Of a stretch of 39,020 nt of DNA, positions 9,559 through 18,189 are shown in pieces. The notes below the pieces were generated by a model. The model made no database searches. It saw only the letters and a program-made list of their open reading frames with translations, and had not been told where the DNA came from. Origin of the DNA: a virus; IMG/VR virus record IMGVR_UViG_3300027582_000007, positions 1 to 39,020 of that record; one strand, 5' to 3'. The position numbers and the translations under genes were made by a program. Position 1 is the first letter of the stretch. Every line of letters starts with the position of its first letter.

Positions 9559-9834
9559 ATGCGTTATCAAAGTGATCCGAATCGAAGAAAAGCTATCGAG
9601 CAACTTGACTTTGCTTGTCATCTTTTAGCCAACGATTCTTTTAATAGACTCGCTGGACGGCTTGACGTTACGAAGCAAGCCATCAGCAAGTGGCGGACAA
9701 GTGGTGTGTTGCCAGCGTCTAGAGCTTGTCAAATCGAACTTCTCACCAAGGGTGAAGTGACATGGCAGTCTTTGTGTCCCGATCTGGTCGCCTCAACCGA
9801 ACAGTTAGCTACTGAGTGGAAGAAAGGGTTGTGA
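9559..9834 (+). CDS. Cro/YdaS-like HTH regulator
   Basis: 91 residues. DSFNRLAGRLDVTKQAISKWRTSGVLPASRACQIE is a helix-turn-helix in the style of YdaS/Cro proteins, in which the protein starts with a short helix and ends just after the HTH (here TWQSLCPDL). An AAAGGAG site lies 11 bases before the ATG. It is divergent from the early leftward operon and is the first rightward early gene, the position of cro. It probably opposes the CI-like repressor, perhaps at the same CAAC-N5-GTTG sites. Unlike lambda, it is separated from cI by the whole replication operon. Confidence 0.8.
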   Translation: MRYQSDPNRRKAIEQLDFACHLLANDSFNRLAGRLDVTKQAISKWRTSGVLPASRACQIELLTKGEVTWQSLCPDLVASTEQLATEWKKGL

Positions 9835-9992: not shown

Positions 9993-12257
9993 ATGTTGCA
10001 AGAAATCGGAACGCGGTTAATAGATCGTGGCTATAAAGTCATCCCTATTAAAAAGGGTAAAAAGTTTCCATGCATAGATGAGTGGCAGAAAGCTAACGCC
10101 ACGCATGAGGATTTAGCGCGGTGGTCAAAAGAATTTCCAGAGAGCGGAATTGGCGTGCTGTGCAAAAACACAATAGCAGTCGATGTCGATTGCAGAAACG
10201 TAAGTTTAGTTAAGCTATGCGCTAAATGGCTGGAAGAGAATGTCGGGATCGCCGCTGCGCGGATCGGCAACCAGCCAAAGATGCTGTTCGCCTATCGCGG
10301 AAACCCGCGCAAAAAGATCAAGTCCGTTGAGTTTGAGTGTCAGGAAGGCAACAAGCACGCCGTAGAGGTCTTAGGTGACGGGCAGCAGTTTGTCGCCTTC
10401 GGAGTGCACCCAGATACGCAGAAGCCATACCGCTGGCTCAAGTCCTACGCCTCGTTAGACTCTGTAAATCACGAAGAACTACCTGAGTTAACAGAGGATA
10501 TGGCGCGGAGGTTCGTTGAGTTCTTTGAACGCAAGGCACGCGAGGCCGGTTGGCAGGAAAGCCGAAAAGGTATGGACAGCAACCTCAGTGAGTACGACGA
10601 ACTGCTTGCGCTGCGTCCGAAGTTTGAAGCGGAAGCCGAAGATGTGAGCGAGATGCTTTGCAAGGTTGATCCAGACATTGATCACGATCACTGGTTCCGA
10701 GTCGGCATGGCTCTACACCACCACTTTGATGGTGATGACGAAGGTCTACAGCTTTGGGCGGAGTGGTCTGCTGATGGTGAGAAGTTCAAAGACGGGGAGT
10801 GCGAAAAGCGTTGGGAGAGCTTCGACAGCAACGGCAAGGTGCCGGTGACGCTGGCCTATGTAGCATCCCTCGCTAAGAAAGAAGAGGCTGAAGAGGTCAT
10901 GCGGGAAAAGGTCGAGGGGGTTTTACCGCACATGCTGGAGAACTGGTCGCTAGTGCTGGTTGAAGGCCATGCACGGGTGGTGCGCGACGATATCTTCCAA
11001 GACCGCACAGTTTTGTACGGCCTAGAAGATGTAAGAAAAGAGTTTCAGAACCAACGGGTTATGAGCTATGAGGGCAAAACGCCAAGGCTAGTCAATCTAG
11101 TCGATATGTGGCTAGAGCATGAAGAGCGCAAGACATACCCAGCCGGTTTAGCGTTCAGCCCTGACGGTGAATCCATCAACCAGTATAACCTGTGGCGCGG
11201 CTGGTCAGTCGAGCCAGTGCAAGGTGATGTGCAGCCGTGGATCGACTTCATAACGTACGTTATTGCGGACGGGAATGTCGCAAACGCAAACTGGATAATC
11301 GCATGGGCAGCGCAGATGGTTCAGCAGCCGCAAGTTAAAATCGGCATCGGTCTAGTGCTTAGAGGGCTGAAGGGTACAGGCAAGACTAAGTTTGCCGAAC
11401 TGCTGGGCTGGCTCGTCAAAAGCCACTTCACCAGCGCAAGCAAGGCAGAGCACATTACCGGCAACTTTAATAAGCATCTGCAAGAGACTTTGCTGCTGTG
11501 CGGGGAAGAGGCGTACTGGGCAGGTGCTAAGGCTGCAGAGTCGGCACTTAAAGACCTACTTACTGCCAGCCAGATTTTCGTTGAGAAGAAAGGTGTGGAC
11601 GGTTATATGGCACCAAATTACACACGCATTGTGTTTACAAGTAACGATGACTTCGTTGTGCCAGCTACGCTGGATGAGCGGCGGTTTGCCGTCTTCGATA
11701 TCAGCGACTGCCGCAAAGAAGACAGCAAATATTTCGAGTCTTTAGATTCTTGGTTTCACAACGGTGGCGGCTCTGCTCTGCTTTATTACCTCAAGCACTT
11801 TGACTTATCGTCAGTTAACGTGCGAAAGGCACCGCAGACTGCTGCCCTGGACGAGCAGAAGTTAGAAAACCTGAGTGGAGTAGATGCGTTTTTGTTAGCC
11901 AGTTTGCAGAACGCAGAATTCAGAGAGCATAAAATTGCTGGAGAATCGCTTCAGTTCGGTGAGGAGGTGAGCAAGACACAGTTGTACGCCATCTACACTT
12001 CAAGCGTGAAGGGAAGGTACGAGGCCATAACCCGCGAGAACAGTTTCTGGAAGGCGCTGCGCAAGACCGGCATATACACAGAGGAAGTTCACAAGCGTGC
12101 CGGTGGTGCGCGGTTCAGAGCGGTGCAGTTAGAAACTTTAAAGAAAGCGCGGAAAAGCTTTGAAGAGTATCTGGGCATAACGGTTGAGTGGACCGAAGAC
12201 GATAAACTCGACCCGTTAGACCCAAGCAACTGGGGCGACGATTCAGTGCCGTTCTAG
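9993..12257 (+). CDS. Prim-pol primase fused to DUF5906/SF3-like helicase
   Basis: 754 residues. Residues about 1-180 are a bifunctional primase/polymerase domain, with IAVDVDC giving the catalytic Asp64/Asp66 and QQFVAFGVHP the His139 motif. A PriCT-like segment follows (about 205-305, VDPDIDHDHWFRVGMALH). The C-terminal ATPase has Walker A GLKGTGKT (458-465), an acidic Walker B region LLLCGEEAYW (500-509) and FTSNDDFVVPATLDERRF with a sensor Asn and arginine finger. It would prime and unwind phage DNA and is the natural initiator for an origin. A GGGGGAG ribosome site precedes the ATG. The polymerase, SSB and nucleases it needs are on the opposite operon. Confidence 0.92.
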   Translation: MLQEIGTRLIDRGYKVIPIKKGKKFPCIDEWQKANATHEDLARWSKEFPESGIGVLCKNTIAVDVDCRNVSLVKLCAKWLEENVGIAAARIGNQPKMLFAYRGNPRKKIKSVEFECQEGNKHAVEVLGDGQQFVAFGVHPDTQKPYRWLKSYASLDSVNHEELPELTEDMARRFVEFFERKAREAGWQESRKGMDSNLSEYDELLALRPKFEAEAEDVSEMLCKVDPDIDHDHWFRVGMALHHHFDGDDEGLQLWAEWSADGEKFKDGECEKRWESFDSNGKVPVTLAYVASLAKKEEAEEVMREKVEGVLPHMLENWSLVLVEGHARVVRDDIFQDRTVLYGLEDVRKEFQNQRVMSYEGKTPRLVNLVDMWLEHEERKTYPAGLAFSPDGESINQYNLWRGWSVEPVQGDVQPWIDFITYVIADGNVANANWIIAWAAQMVQQPQVKIGIGLVLRGLKGTGKTKFAELLGWLVKSHFTSASKAEHITGNFNKHLQETLLLCGEEAYWAGAKAAESALKDLLTASQIFVEKKGVDGYMAPNYTRIVFTSNDDFVVPATLDERRFAVFDISDCRKEDSKYFESLDSWFHNGGGSALLYYLKHFDLSSVNVRKAPQTAALDEQKLENLSGVDAFLLASLQNAEFREHKIAGESLQFGEEVSKTQLYAIYTSSVKGRYEAITRENSFWKALRKTGIYTEEVHKRAGGARFRAVQLETLKKARKSFEEYLGITVEWTEDDKLDPLDPSNWGDDSVPF

Positions 12258-12867: not shown

Positions 12868-13413
12868 GTGCCATATGTGAGCAAGGCTGCGCAAATAGTC
12901 AATTTGACGGAAATAGCGCAGGAAAGACTTAAAGAAGTAAATGAACTGCAAAGGGAGAATGACAAACTGATAGAGGATCGAAACGAGAGGCAGGAAATTA
13001 CTGCTGCCGCTTTCGACAGAGAAAACACTTACCGTTCGCAGCGTGAAGAATTAAATAGTCTTAGTCAGCTAAAGTTTAAAGCTGGAGACATTTGGGACTT
13101 ATCCGCGCAGTTAACAATCGAAGATATTAGCGACCTGCTGAATATTTTCCGAGATCGCATCGTCGTTGAAGACTGCGACTCGCCTTTCACCCACGAAACT
13201 GATTTCAGCGAATCGTTCTGCCATAGAGATAAGAGTGCGGCGGTAATTGCTCAAACTTTGAGCGCAGCCTATCGTAGTAATGATCTTAAAAAGGGCAGCA
13301 CTTTTGCGGAGTGGCTACAGTACGTCCCGCAGAACGTTAAGCACGATTACGACGAAGAAAACGTTTACACAGACGGCGTGAAAATAAAATTCCATTTGGA
13401 CAACACAGATTAG
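12868..13413 (+). CDS. Unknown protein with N-terminal coiled coil
   Basis: 181 residues. I chose the GTG at 12868, which lies 5 bases after AAGGAGG (12856-12862); the ATG at 12844 falls at the predicted transcription start. Residues about 10-65 are a long charged helix likely to form a coiled coil (QERLKEVNELQRENDKLIED). The rest contains ISDLLNIFRDRIVVEDCDS and an acidic C-terminus, with no domain I recognise. It is the first gene of the 12.8-14.4 kb unit and sits behind an operator-like promoter, so it may be kept off in the lysogen. Confidence 0.7.
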   Translation: MPYVSKAAQIVNLTEIAQERLKEVNELQRENDKLIEDRNERQEITAAAFDRENTYRSQREELNSLSQLKFKAGDIWDLSAQLTIEDISDLLNIFRDRIVVEDCDSPFTHETDFSESFCHRDKSAAVIAQTLSAAYRSNDLKKGSTFAEWLQYVPQNVKHDYDEENVYTDGVKIKFHLDNTD

Positions 13414-13598
13414 GGGGCGCACTTCCTCAACAGGCGAGTAGCAGCGTCAGTTTGTGCGCAAAAAAAAGCTTTTCATAGGCTGGTTTCCTGCGACGAGAAA
13501 CAGAGTAGATGTACGATGGTGGCCCCCGAAACATCATATACGCCATCAATCTGCTCAACTGCTACATTTTATTTCAACAAGAAGTGGTGTATACAACA

Positions 13599-13853
13599 AT
13601 GAGTGATATATTTTACCAAGCGACGAGGGTCGTTATTGATGGTCGTTTGCTACGAATTTTTAACGGCCCACGTTCTAAGGGAGCTACGGCTTTAAGGCTT
13701 GACCAAGACGAAGAAATCGTAAGCACGATTGTCGGTGACACGCGAAAAGGCAATAGCGCAAAACAAATAGCGCAAAAACTAGGTATAGCGCCCAGCACAG
13801 TAACCAAAATTAAAGACATTTTCCGCGAACGCTGGGAAGGTTTTAAGGAGTAA
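13599..13853 (+). CDS. Small HTH protein
   Basis: 84 residues from the ATG at 13599 (an ATG at 13509 in the same frame would add 30 residues of atypical composition). NSAKQIAQKLGIAPSTVTKIKDIFRERW near the C-terminus is a resolvase-type helix-turn-helix. The N-terminus (IFYQATRVVIDGRLLRIFNGPRSKG) resembles small phage proteins with the same plan. Probably a DNA-binding regulator of the late or accessory genes. A one-mismatch operator-like sequence CAACAAGAAGTGG lies upstream (13575-13587). The next gene follows after 2 bases, with GGAG in the overlap region. Confidence 0.65.
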   Translation: MSDIFYQATRVVIDGRLLRIFNGPRSKGATALRLDQDEEIVSTIVGDTRKGNSAKQIAQKLGIAPSTVTKIKDIFRERWEGFKE

Positions 13854-14192: not shown

Positions 14193-14401
14193 GGCCATCT
14201 ACTGATCCAAAGAGAGAAGCTGAAAGGCAAAAAACTGCTGACGCGGTCCAGAAATTTCTTGATGAGGGCGGTGAGATTCAAGTCGCTGACTCGACCATGT
14301 ACAAGCGTGAGCGGGGTATATTGACCAGGGAACAGATCGCAAAGACGTTTGCTTATCAGAGTCAAATAGGCAAAATAAAGAAACAGCATCAAGGCTTGTA
14401 A
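14189..14401 (+). CDS. Small conserved phage protein (FLDEGGEI type)
   Basis: 70 residues from a TTG start that overlaps the previous stop, with GAGGAG at 14175-14180 at good spacing. The core AVQKFLDEGGEIQVAD corresponds to a short pattern (xFLxxGGxI) found in many small phage proteins of unknown role; the C-terminus is Lys-rich. It is the last gene of its unit and a strong intrinsic terminator follows 43 bases downstream. Confidence 0.65.
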   Translation: MRPSTDPKREAERQKTADAVQKFLDEGGEIQVADSTMYKRERGILTREQIAKTFAYQSQIGKIKKQHQGL

Positions 14402-14444
14402 GGAGGTGATATCTCTTTCGCGTTCGACCCCCACCCCCACCTAG

Positions 14445-14472
14445 ACCCCTCTACTCAGAGGGGTTTTTTTTT
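14445..14472 (+). terminator. Intrinsic terminator of the 12.8-14.4 kb operon
   Basis: A perfect 8-bp stem, ACCCCTCT (14445-14452) and AGAGGGGT (14457-14464), with a 4-base loop ACTC, is followed by a run of nine T (14464-14472). It lies just after the last small rightward gene. Confidence 0.9.
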
Positions 14473-14602
14473 GAAATCAAACATCAATATCAAAACCGTT
14501 CAAGATTTTTGACCTTTCAGGTTTGGTTTTCAAAAACGACCCCAAAACACCTCTGAAGCAGATTTGCCAGAAAAAACGGGTGGAAAGCGGCGCAGTGTCG
14601 GT

Positions 14603-14945
14603 AGGCACGGGTTAGGCCAAAAGGCACGGGTTAGGCACGGGTTGGTTTTTTGCACCCTGTGCCAAGAAATCCCGCTGCGTTGCGGCTTTGCAGGTAAGGA
14701 ACGGGTGGTACAGGTTATTACTCTTTATTTTAAGAGAGAAATATAAGAGTAGTACGTTTAGCCGTTCCGCCGTGCCTACTGGCCCCGTGCTTGCACGCGC
14801 ACACCCGCCCCCCAGCAAACCGGAAAGTTACCCGTGCCACCCGTGCCACCCGTGCCTAGTGACTTAACTCATTGATTTATAAGCAAAAAAAAGGCACGGG
14901 TTAGCGAAAACCAACCCGTGCCTAAACCGCTCTAACCCGTGCCTA
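14603..14945. repeat. Iteron array, candidate replication origin
   Basis: The 9-mer GGCACGGGT occurs nine times without mismatch: forward at 14604, 14623, 14634 and 14893; as its complement ACCCGTGCC at 14830, 14839, 14848, 14914 and 14935. Most forward copies continue as GGCACGGGTTAG; copies 14830-14856 are three direct tandem 9-mers. Degenerate copies lie at 14653-14663 and 14770-14778. Between the two clusters is an AT-rich segment (14712-14757). The 475-base region 14473-14947 has no gene and lies between convergent operons. This plan resembles iteron origins such as that of P4. No replication data support it, and the array could instead bind a regulator. Confidence 0.55.
14883..14923 (-). 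terminator. Intrinsic terminator of the leftward 17.6-14.9 kb operon, built from two iterons
   Basis: Two iterons form a perfect 11-bp inverted repeat, AGGCACGGGTT (14892-14902) and AACCCGTGCCT (14913-14923), with a 10-base loop. On the minus strand the stem is followed by eight T (14892-14885). It is well placed to stop leftward transcription after the gene ending at 14948. Confidence 0.75.
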
Positions 14946-14947
14946 GC

Positions 14948-15349
14948 CTAACTGAGCGCCGTAACGTCTAAATCTTCACTTGTGAGGTGTTTCAAATCAG
15001 TTTGTCGGGTGACGTTAGCCAAAAGCATAGCGCGGCCCTCTTTGTTCACCGCAAACGAAAAAGCGATAGTATCGCCCACGACTGCTTGTGCGCGAAGGTC
15101 AGCGGCGGGGATGCTGTAACGCTTATCTTTGCGCCCACCTTTGCCGGTAACCCGATAAAAGCGGATAACGCTCACACTCCCATCGGTAAACGCCAGCGGC
15201 ACCTCTATGCGCTGCCCGTTTTCGAGCGCGTCAAAATCGACACCAAACAAACGGGCGAAAGTTGCCAGTTCCGCCCAACAGTCGGGGTTGCCTTTTTCAA
15301 TCATGGTTTTGGTTAACTTTTTATAAATCGGCGGTATTACTTTTTGCAT
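14948..15349 (-). CDS. Unknown protein next to the iteron array
   Basis: 133 residues, with GAAGGTGA shortly before the ATG. The N-terminal half has a helix (NPDCWAELATFARLFGVDFDAL). The C-terminal half is beta-rich, with RYSIPAADLRAQAVVGDTIAFSF followed by NKEGRAMLLANV, which looks like a small beta-barrel DNA- or RNA-binding fold (AbrB- or B3-like phrasing, IP..LR...VGD). That reading is weak. It is the last gene of the leftward operon and its stop lies 3 bases from the final iteron, so an iteron-binding role is possible but speculative. Overlaps the upstream gene by 13 bases. Confidence 0.65.
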   Translation of the reverse strand: MQKVIPPIYKKLTKTMIEKGNPDCWAELATFARLFGVDFDALENGQRIEVPLAFTDGSVSVIRFYRVTGKGGRKDKRYSIPAADLRAQAVVGDTIAFSFAVNKEGRAMLLANVTRQTDLKHLTSEDLDVTALS

Positions 15350-17793: not shown

Positions 17794-18189
17794 ATGGCGC
17801 GACTACCTGTAGACATAGACATAAACCAAGTGCGACAGCTTGCTGCGCAGGGAATGAGCGAAATCCAAATAGCTCAATCGTTGGGCGTTAGCCCGTCAAC
17901 CATCGATAGACGAAAGCGTGGTGATCCTGATGGTTTTGGGTGCGCCATTAAAGAAGGGCGTGCCGCTGGTATCAAAGCGGTCACATCGAGCCTGTTCCAA
18001 GCCGCTACTGATCCTGACCGCCCAAACGTGGCGGCGGCTCAGTTCTATCTAAAGAACCGTGATCGGGCTAATTGGAGCGACCGACAAGAACATGACGTTA
18101 CGGGCCACATAAGCCACGACCACGACCATAACGTGCAGCGTGCAATGCAGACACTCATCGACAACGGGGTTGATCCTGCAAGCCTTTGA
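17794..18189 (+). CDS. terS: Small terminase subunit
   Basis: 131 residues. The N-terminal HTH (VRQLAAQGMSEIQIAQSLGVSPSTIDRRK, about 12-40) recognises packaging DNA; residues about 45-95, with FGCAIKEGRAAGIKAVTSSLFQAAT and AAAQFYLKNRDRANWSDR, are the oligomerisation region typical of phage small terminases. The C-terminus is His-rich (HISHDHDHN). It lies immediately before the large subunit gene, separated by a 225-base spacer with repeats that may be part of the packaging site. Confidence 0.9.
   Translation: MARLPVDIDINQVRQLAAQGMSEIQIAQSLGVSPSTIDRRKRGDPDGFGCAIKEGRAAGIKAVTSSLFQAATDPDRPNVAAAQFYLKNRDRANWSDRQEHDVTGHISHDHDHNVQRAMQTLIDNGVDPASL

Follow-up and report, generated by a model that had tools for sequence, protein, structure and literature searches.

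A mirrored iteron array around an AT-rich core as the probable replication origin of marine prim-pol/SF3 phages

A gene-free interval crowded with short repeats in a phage genome raises two questions: what the repeats are for, and which protein reads them. The window analysed here is the whole IMG/VR virus record IMGVR_UViG_3300027582_000007 (39,020 bases), whose gene content is that of a temperate tailed phage; its left part holds a phage DNA helicase, PolA and an exonuclease, and terminase, portal and tail genes lie to the right of the prim-pol/SF3 gene (Table 1). A nucleotide search of the phage collection returned no near relative of the record. From the letters alone, the interval had been described as a gene-free region of 475 bases between two convergent operons, each ended by a terminator. 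The gene-free region is borne out and proves slightly larger, about 546 bases (14402-14947, between the end of a + strand ORF at 14401 and the stop of a - strand ORF at 14948). Terminators are indeed predicted for both operons, but the one on the - strand lies inside the repeat array and is formed by the repeats themselves. At 14892-14923, sites of the putative origin thus double as a predicted transcription stop, the A-tract of which is kept in the close clade only; as a general explanation of the inverted iterons a terminator role was rejected, being restricted to the clade of the window. GC skew switches sign at the array but tracks gene orientation, and because it follows gene direction it is uninformative on the origin.

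The iteron GGCACGGGT occurs exactly nine times in the 39,020 bases, both strands counted, and always inside 14604-14943. Only 0.16 copies are expected and the maximum in 100 shuffled sequences was two, so a chance origin of the cluster is excluded. The nine perfect 9-mers of the sequence-only reading are therefore all where it had placed them, none lies elsewhere in the record, and exact copies are confined to one array. That reading missed the degenerate copies, namely CCTGTGCC, GGAACGGGT, GGTACAGG and three weaker ones at 14761-14791; the three named variants complete a core array of 6 + 6 iterons. Between the two halves lies the AT-rich segment that had also been claimed, and it is real: by nearest-neighbour energy, no 40-mer in the record is less stable than 14714-14753.

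Table 1. Features of the array and of the surrounding genome (positions in the window)
Feature	Position	Strand	Remarks
Integrase	2061		
Repressor	3521		
Cro/YdaS-like protein	9559-9834		
Prim-pol + PriCT-2 + SF3 helicase (DUF5906), proposed initiator	9993-12257	+	Pfam, PHROGs
C-terminal winged-helix domain, residues 632-726, proposed iteron reader	11886-12170	+	AlphaFold2
HTH protein (HTH13509)	13509-13853		
Predicted intrinsic terminator, rightward operon	14443-14466	+	10-pair stem + T run
Iteron GGCACGGGT, outer left	14604-14612	+	exact
Iteron GGCACGGGT, outer left, 19 bp on	14623-14631	+	exact
Iteron GGCACGGGT, outer left, 11 bp on	14634-14642	+	exact
Variant iteron CCTGTGCC (read on + strand), reversed copy of left half	14656-14663	-	one mismatch
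Variant iteron GGAACGGGT, inner left pair	14698-14706	+	one mismatch; exact in L004, L009
Variant iteron GGTACAGG, inner left pair, tandem at 9 bp	14707-14714	+	two mismatches
AT-rich core, putative duplex unwinding element	14714-14753		77.5% A+T; between array halves
Three degenerate copies between core and right half	14761-14791	-	one to two mismatches
Iteron, inner right triplet	14830-14838	-	exact
Iteron, inner right triplet, tandem at 9 bp	14839-14847	-	exact
Iteron, inner right triplet, tandem at 9 bp	14848-14856	-	exact
Predicted intrinsic terminator, leftward operon	14892-14923	-	two inverted iterons, 14-pair stem + T run
Iteron, reversed copy of right half; arm of - strand terminator	14893-14901	+	exact
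Iteron, outer right; other terminator arm	14914-14922	-	exact
Iteron, outer right	14935-14943	-	exact
Small terminase	17794-18189		

Absence of the repeats from close relatives would count against an origin. Eleven IMG/VR contigs carry a full-length prim-pol at 89-98% identity, and the array is kept in all six that reach the region (L001, L002, L004, L009, L010 and L011); L003 and L005-L008 end short of it and stand outside this count. When the close relatives are aligned, the iterons and the AT core are kept while the intervening DNA varies. In L001 (7705-7860) and L010 (13952-14110) the outer left block of four sites is duplicated, about 100 bp apart.

The comparison was extended to several dozen contigs with a prim-pol at 49-53% identity, and to more obtained through other queries, in which the DNA downstream of the prim-pol was scanned for clustered 8-mers without bias towards any word. 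Arrays were found in more than 30 further contigs (some near-identical to each other, which makes the independent cases fewer), most of them with a prim-pol about 50% identical, at 0.5-3.8 kb downstream of the gene. At least ten other iteron words are used there, nearly all words starting with CC and a pyrimidine: CCCGTGCG, CCYYGTAC, CCTTGACC, CCTGACAC, CYTGAACG, CCTGTGCG, CCTGTGCA, CCTGTGAG, CCCTGAGT and CCTGTAGC, and also CCTGAACG. Orientation, spacing and the AT-rich gap are largely kept across the word changes. With the arrays set in one orientation, the shared left pattern has sites at 0, 19 and 30, a reversed site at about 52 and inner sites at about 95-105; after the gap, inner sites 8-9 bp apart are followed by a reversed site about 44 bp on and then by the outer sites. 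The outer left spacing of the window (0/19/30) is common to L013, L014, L041 and L066 within 1 bp, the reversed copy at 14656-14663 has the same offset (about 52) and orientation in the relatives, and the counterpart there of the tandem copy at 14707-14714 is exact or has one mismatch.

In L041, L066, L078 and L179 a gap some 100 bp wide separates two sets of exactly six sites. Mirror symmetry reaches p = 0.001 in L066, L078 and L179 and p = 0.01-0.03 in L004, L009, L041 and L052, and in its strict form it is not significant for the array of the window (p = 0.33, 3 bp tolerance). Of 22 loci, 19 have their least stable 40-mer within the array. No clear array was found downstream of the prim-pol in a sister group (L022, L053, L079, L099 and L071), for which about 5 kb or more of downstream sequence was available (4.9 kb in L071). 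As a separate observation, 14 bp tandem repeats with a ACCGCGACAAA core adjoin the array in L016 (5316-5500), L014 (from 7965), L018 (from 4776) and L077, in 5-13 copies, the number of which differs between near-identical contigs.

The gene that accompanies these arrays lies, in the window, 2.3 kb upstream of the array, and its product unites a Prim-Pol, a helical PriCT-type domain and an SF3 helicase in one chain (Pfam: AEP Prim-Pol, E 5.5e-15; PriCT_2; DUF5906, E 5.5e-21). DUF5906 is the SF3 core of the P4 family. The only PDB sequence match of the protein is the NrS-1 primase helicase domain. At its C-terminus AlphaFold2 (51 sequences) predicts a winged helix with a pLDDT of 79.7; in model numbering its helices span 66-77 and 87-97, and the wing lies at 100-118. 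VIA-align places this domain near many winged helices, among them the RFX DNA-binding domain (1dp7) at Z 6.0 and, over 72 residues, the P4 origin-binding domain (1ka8) at Z 4.6. The latter is a weak match, level with unrelated winged helices, and these Z values show a common fold only. A Foldseek search of the PDB gave no match below E 0.001. RFX reads DNA with its wing.

The best explanation is that this temperate phage starts its replication at 14604-14943 and that the iterons there are recognised by the winged helix at the C-terminus of its prim-pol/SF3 protein; judged from sequence, we give this a probability of about 0.8. It is favoured because six-iteron sets flank the least stable DNA in a layout that is kept even where the word has changed, and the iteron origin that had been proposed at the outset thus gains support from layout conservation and from the melting core. 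We infer ring loading, melting and priming along the following lines. The winged helix would read the iterons, each of the two half-sites would nucleate an SF3 helicase ring, the two rings would face one another over the AT-rich core and melt it, the N-terminal prim-pol would prime on the exposed strands, and the phage PolA and helicases would extend. The match between twelve sites and two hexamers is suggestive only.

The only origin proposal found for this class of proteins is of a different kind, a stem-loop suggested for the AEP prim-pol/SF3/winged-helix proteins of pRN1 and of Bordetella phage BIP-1 (PMC4234260). Applied to this locus, the prim-pol would assemble on a hairpin and the repeats would be secondary. 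A hairpin can indeed be folded from the AT core of the window (z = -1.73; 8 of 200 shuffles do as well), and it is mostly kept in the close clade. The covariation term speaks against it (+0.29), however, and in ten loci of other words, where the iteron geometry persists, none is predicted. The stem-loop finds no support outside the close clade and is very improbable as the origin.

With regard to the reader of the iterons, 13 proteins of the window were searched for in the distant array-bearing loci, and only the prim-pol, Cro, the small terminase and TerL are generally shared. The protein at 14948-15349, which had been offered as a possible binding partner, is not supported, since it is found only in the close clade of the window and in none of the distant iteron-bearing relatives; together with HTH13509, it is rejected as a reader because both are absent from the distant array-bearing loci. 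Cro is rejected as well, because its HTH reading helix is identical in L013/L058 and L014/L018/L077 despite their different words. These results bear on the notion that the array is an operator or a partition-type array for the Cro-like protein, HTH13509, the 14948-15349 protein or an unfound protein, with no direct role in initiation. Iteron arrays do act as operators and centromeres too, and the Cro-like protein occurs in nearly all array-bearing loci; against this, besides the two missing proteins and the unchanged Cro helix, stand the lack of a recognisable promoter within the array and the presence of the weakest duplex of the genome in its middle. An operator or partition role is accordingly considered unlikely.

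Less likely still is a packaging start (pac/cos) recognised by the small terminase, even if that protein is conserved in the array-bearing loci with enough sequence. Its gene lies about 2.8 kb from the array in the window, and an AT-rich melting core between mirrored iterons is, to our knowledge, not a known pac feature. Between L013 and L018, whose words are entirely different, the small terminase is 81% identical; this argument is weak, since the HTH regions of the two proteins also differ.

The prim-pol/SF3 protein, already named as a possible binder, is supported as the likely reader: its gene is shared by the distant array loci, and its winged helix varies with the word. The prim-pols of L013 and L014, whose words differ, are 92.4% identical over residues 1-619 and 54.2% identical over residues 632-726. 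In partial Mantel tests, word distance is associated with distance in residues 680-714 (recognition helix and wing, a stretch picked late, after sliding-window and model results) once the remainder of the chain is controlled for (r = 0.34, p = 0.0006, 18 types); with the winged helix controlled for instead, the remainder shows no association (p = 0.65). Column-wise word association is not concentrated in the winged helix (p about 0.5). As this test was negative and the 680-714 stretch was chosen after earlier looks, the claim that the C-terminal winged helix reads the iterons counts as probable only. Residue 700 is Q, H, M or N where the word contains GT and Y or R where it contains GA, which fits nearly all word types; this single-residue code was picked post hoc and is only a lead. 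Between L041 and L045 the whole prim-pol differs at 16 amino acids, 11 of them in residues 657-703, a clustering that points to recombination in the recent past or to selection on specificity.

A SaPI origin, too, has two sets of iterons with AT-rich DNA between them, and it is by this layout, downstream of the initiator gene, that the present array is likened to it. In SaPIs the C-terminal domain of the Rep helicase recognises iterons downstream of its own gene, apparently as two hexamers (PMC7581432). The differences are that the array does not follow directly after the gene here and that, set against the published description, the host group and the initiator architecture are others; for SaPIs, no published report of word switching on a fixed layout was found. 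P4 alpha is an SF3-helicase initiator whose C-terminal winged helix binds origin repeats and whose primase is of the Toprim type (PMC4234260). It shares with the present protein the SF3 core; the winged helix predicted here aligns to its origin-binding domain 1ka8 no better than to other winged helices. AEP Prim-Pol and PriCT-2 replace Toprim here, and the mirrored 6+6 array belongs to a phage and not to a satellite. A P4-type replicon also has a second cis element, crr; in the window, exact iterons form a single array. The combination of AEP prim-pol, helical domain and SF3 helicase recurs in pRN1 ORF904, BPP-1/BIP-1 and NrS-1, the protein of which forms hexameric rings (PMC7102993). Unlike the window, pRN1 and BIP-1 have a proposed stem-loop and BPP-1 has no clear array near its prim-pol, nor was one found near that of Bradleyvirinae and related phages (AAT-1, Mallos, DLP4, VBv52). 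An iteron plasmid origin (RepA/RepE/pi), with a Rep initiator of tandem winged helices encoded close by, was also considered, and no Rep family occurs among ten proteins around the array. Read as an origin, the array would work like those of P4 and SaPI, is assigned to neither, and belongs to the AEP class.

In the PLE satellites of Vibrio cholerae, the DNA-binding domain of RepA and the origin covary and only cognate pairs replicate (PMC8263062). The likeness is that the DNA-binding domain of the initiator and the origin vary as a module; in contrast, RepA is of the RepA_N type, unrelated to prim-pol/SF3, and its iterons are semi-palindromic and about 30 bp long. As the word and the winged helix probably change together, related phages would keep origins that do not cross-react. 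A more tentative proposal, with chances slightly below even, is that of a modular origin address: a fixed mirror-image 2 x 6 scaffold would offer one site per subunit of two SF3 hexamers, and the eight-letter word would be replaced at all sites in concert with the wing of the winged helix, giving many incompatible origin types in one lineage.

Marine viral contigs readily yield prim-pol/SF3 phages, and a literature search found no paper describing such an array. Its word types, at least ten in number, allow initiators to be matched to their origins from sequence, which provides a natural experiment in the switching of initiator specificity, for which L013 versus L014 and L041 versus L045 are ready-made test pairs. 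The origin can also be mapped in isolated phages. In Rhizobium phage RHph_X2_30 (L179; prim-pol 31% identical), CCTTGGACC forms a mirrored 6+6 array at 13148-13443, 2.9 kb downstream of the prim-pol, and in a Paracoccus MAG contig (L101) a mirrored 6+6 array comes just after that gene. If the modular origin address is true, its occurrence in these two would make it the general origin of a large branch of the AEP prim-pol phages. Roseobacter phage RDJL6 carries an array of CCGGACCA at L181 13863-14146; the gene-free stretch around it, about 970 bases long, contains the least stable 40-mer of the examined region. The prim-pol/SF3 protein of RDJL6 (L181 7875-10286, UFK26729.1) is publicly annotated as an integrase, and AAT-1 carries a similar note.
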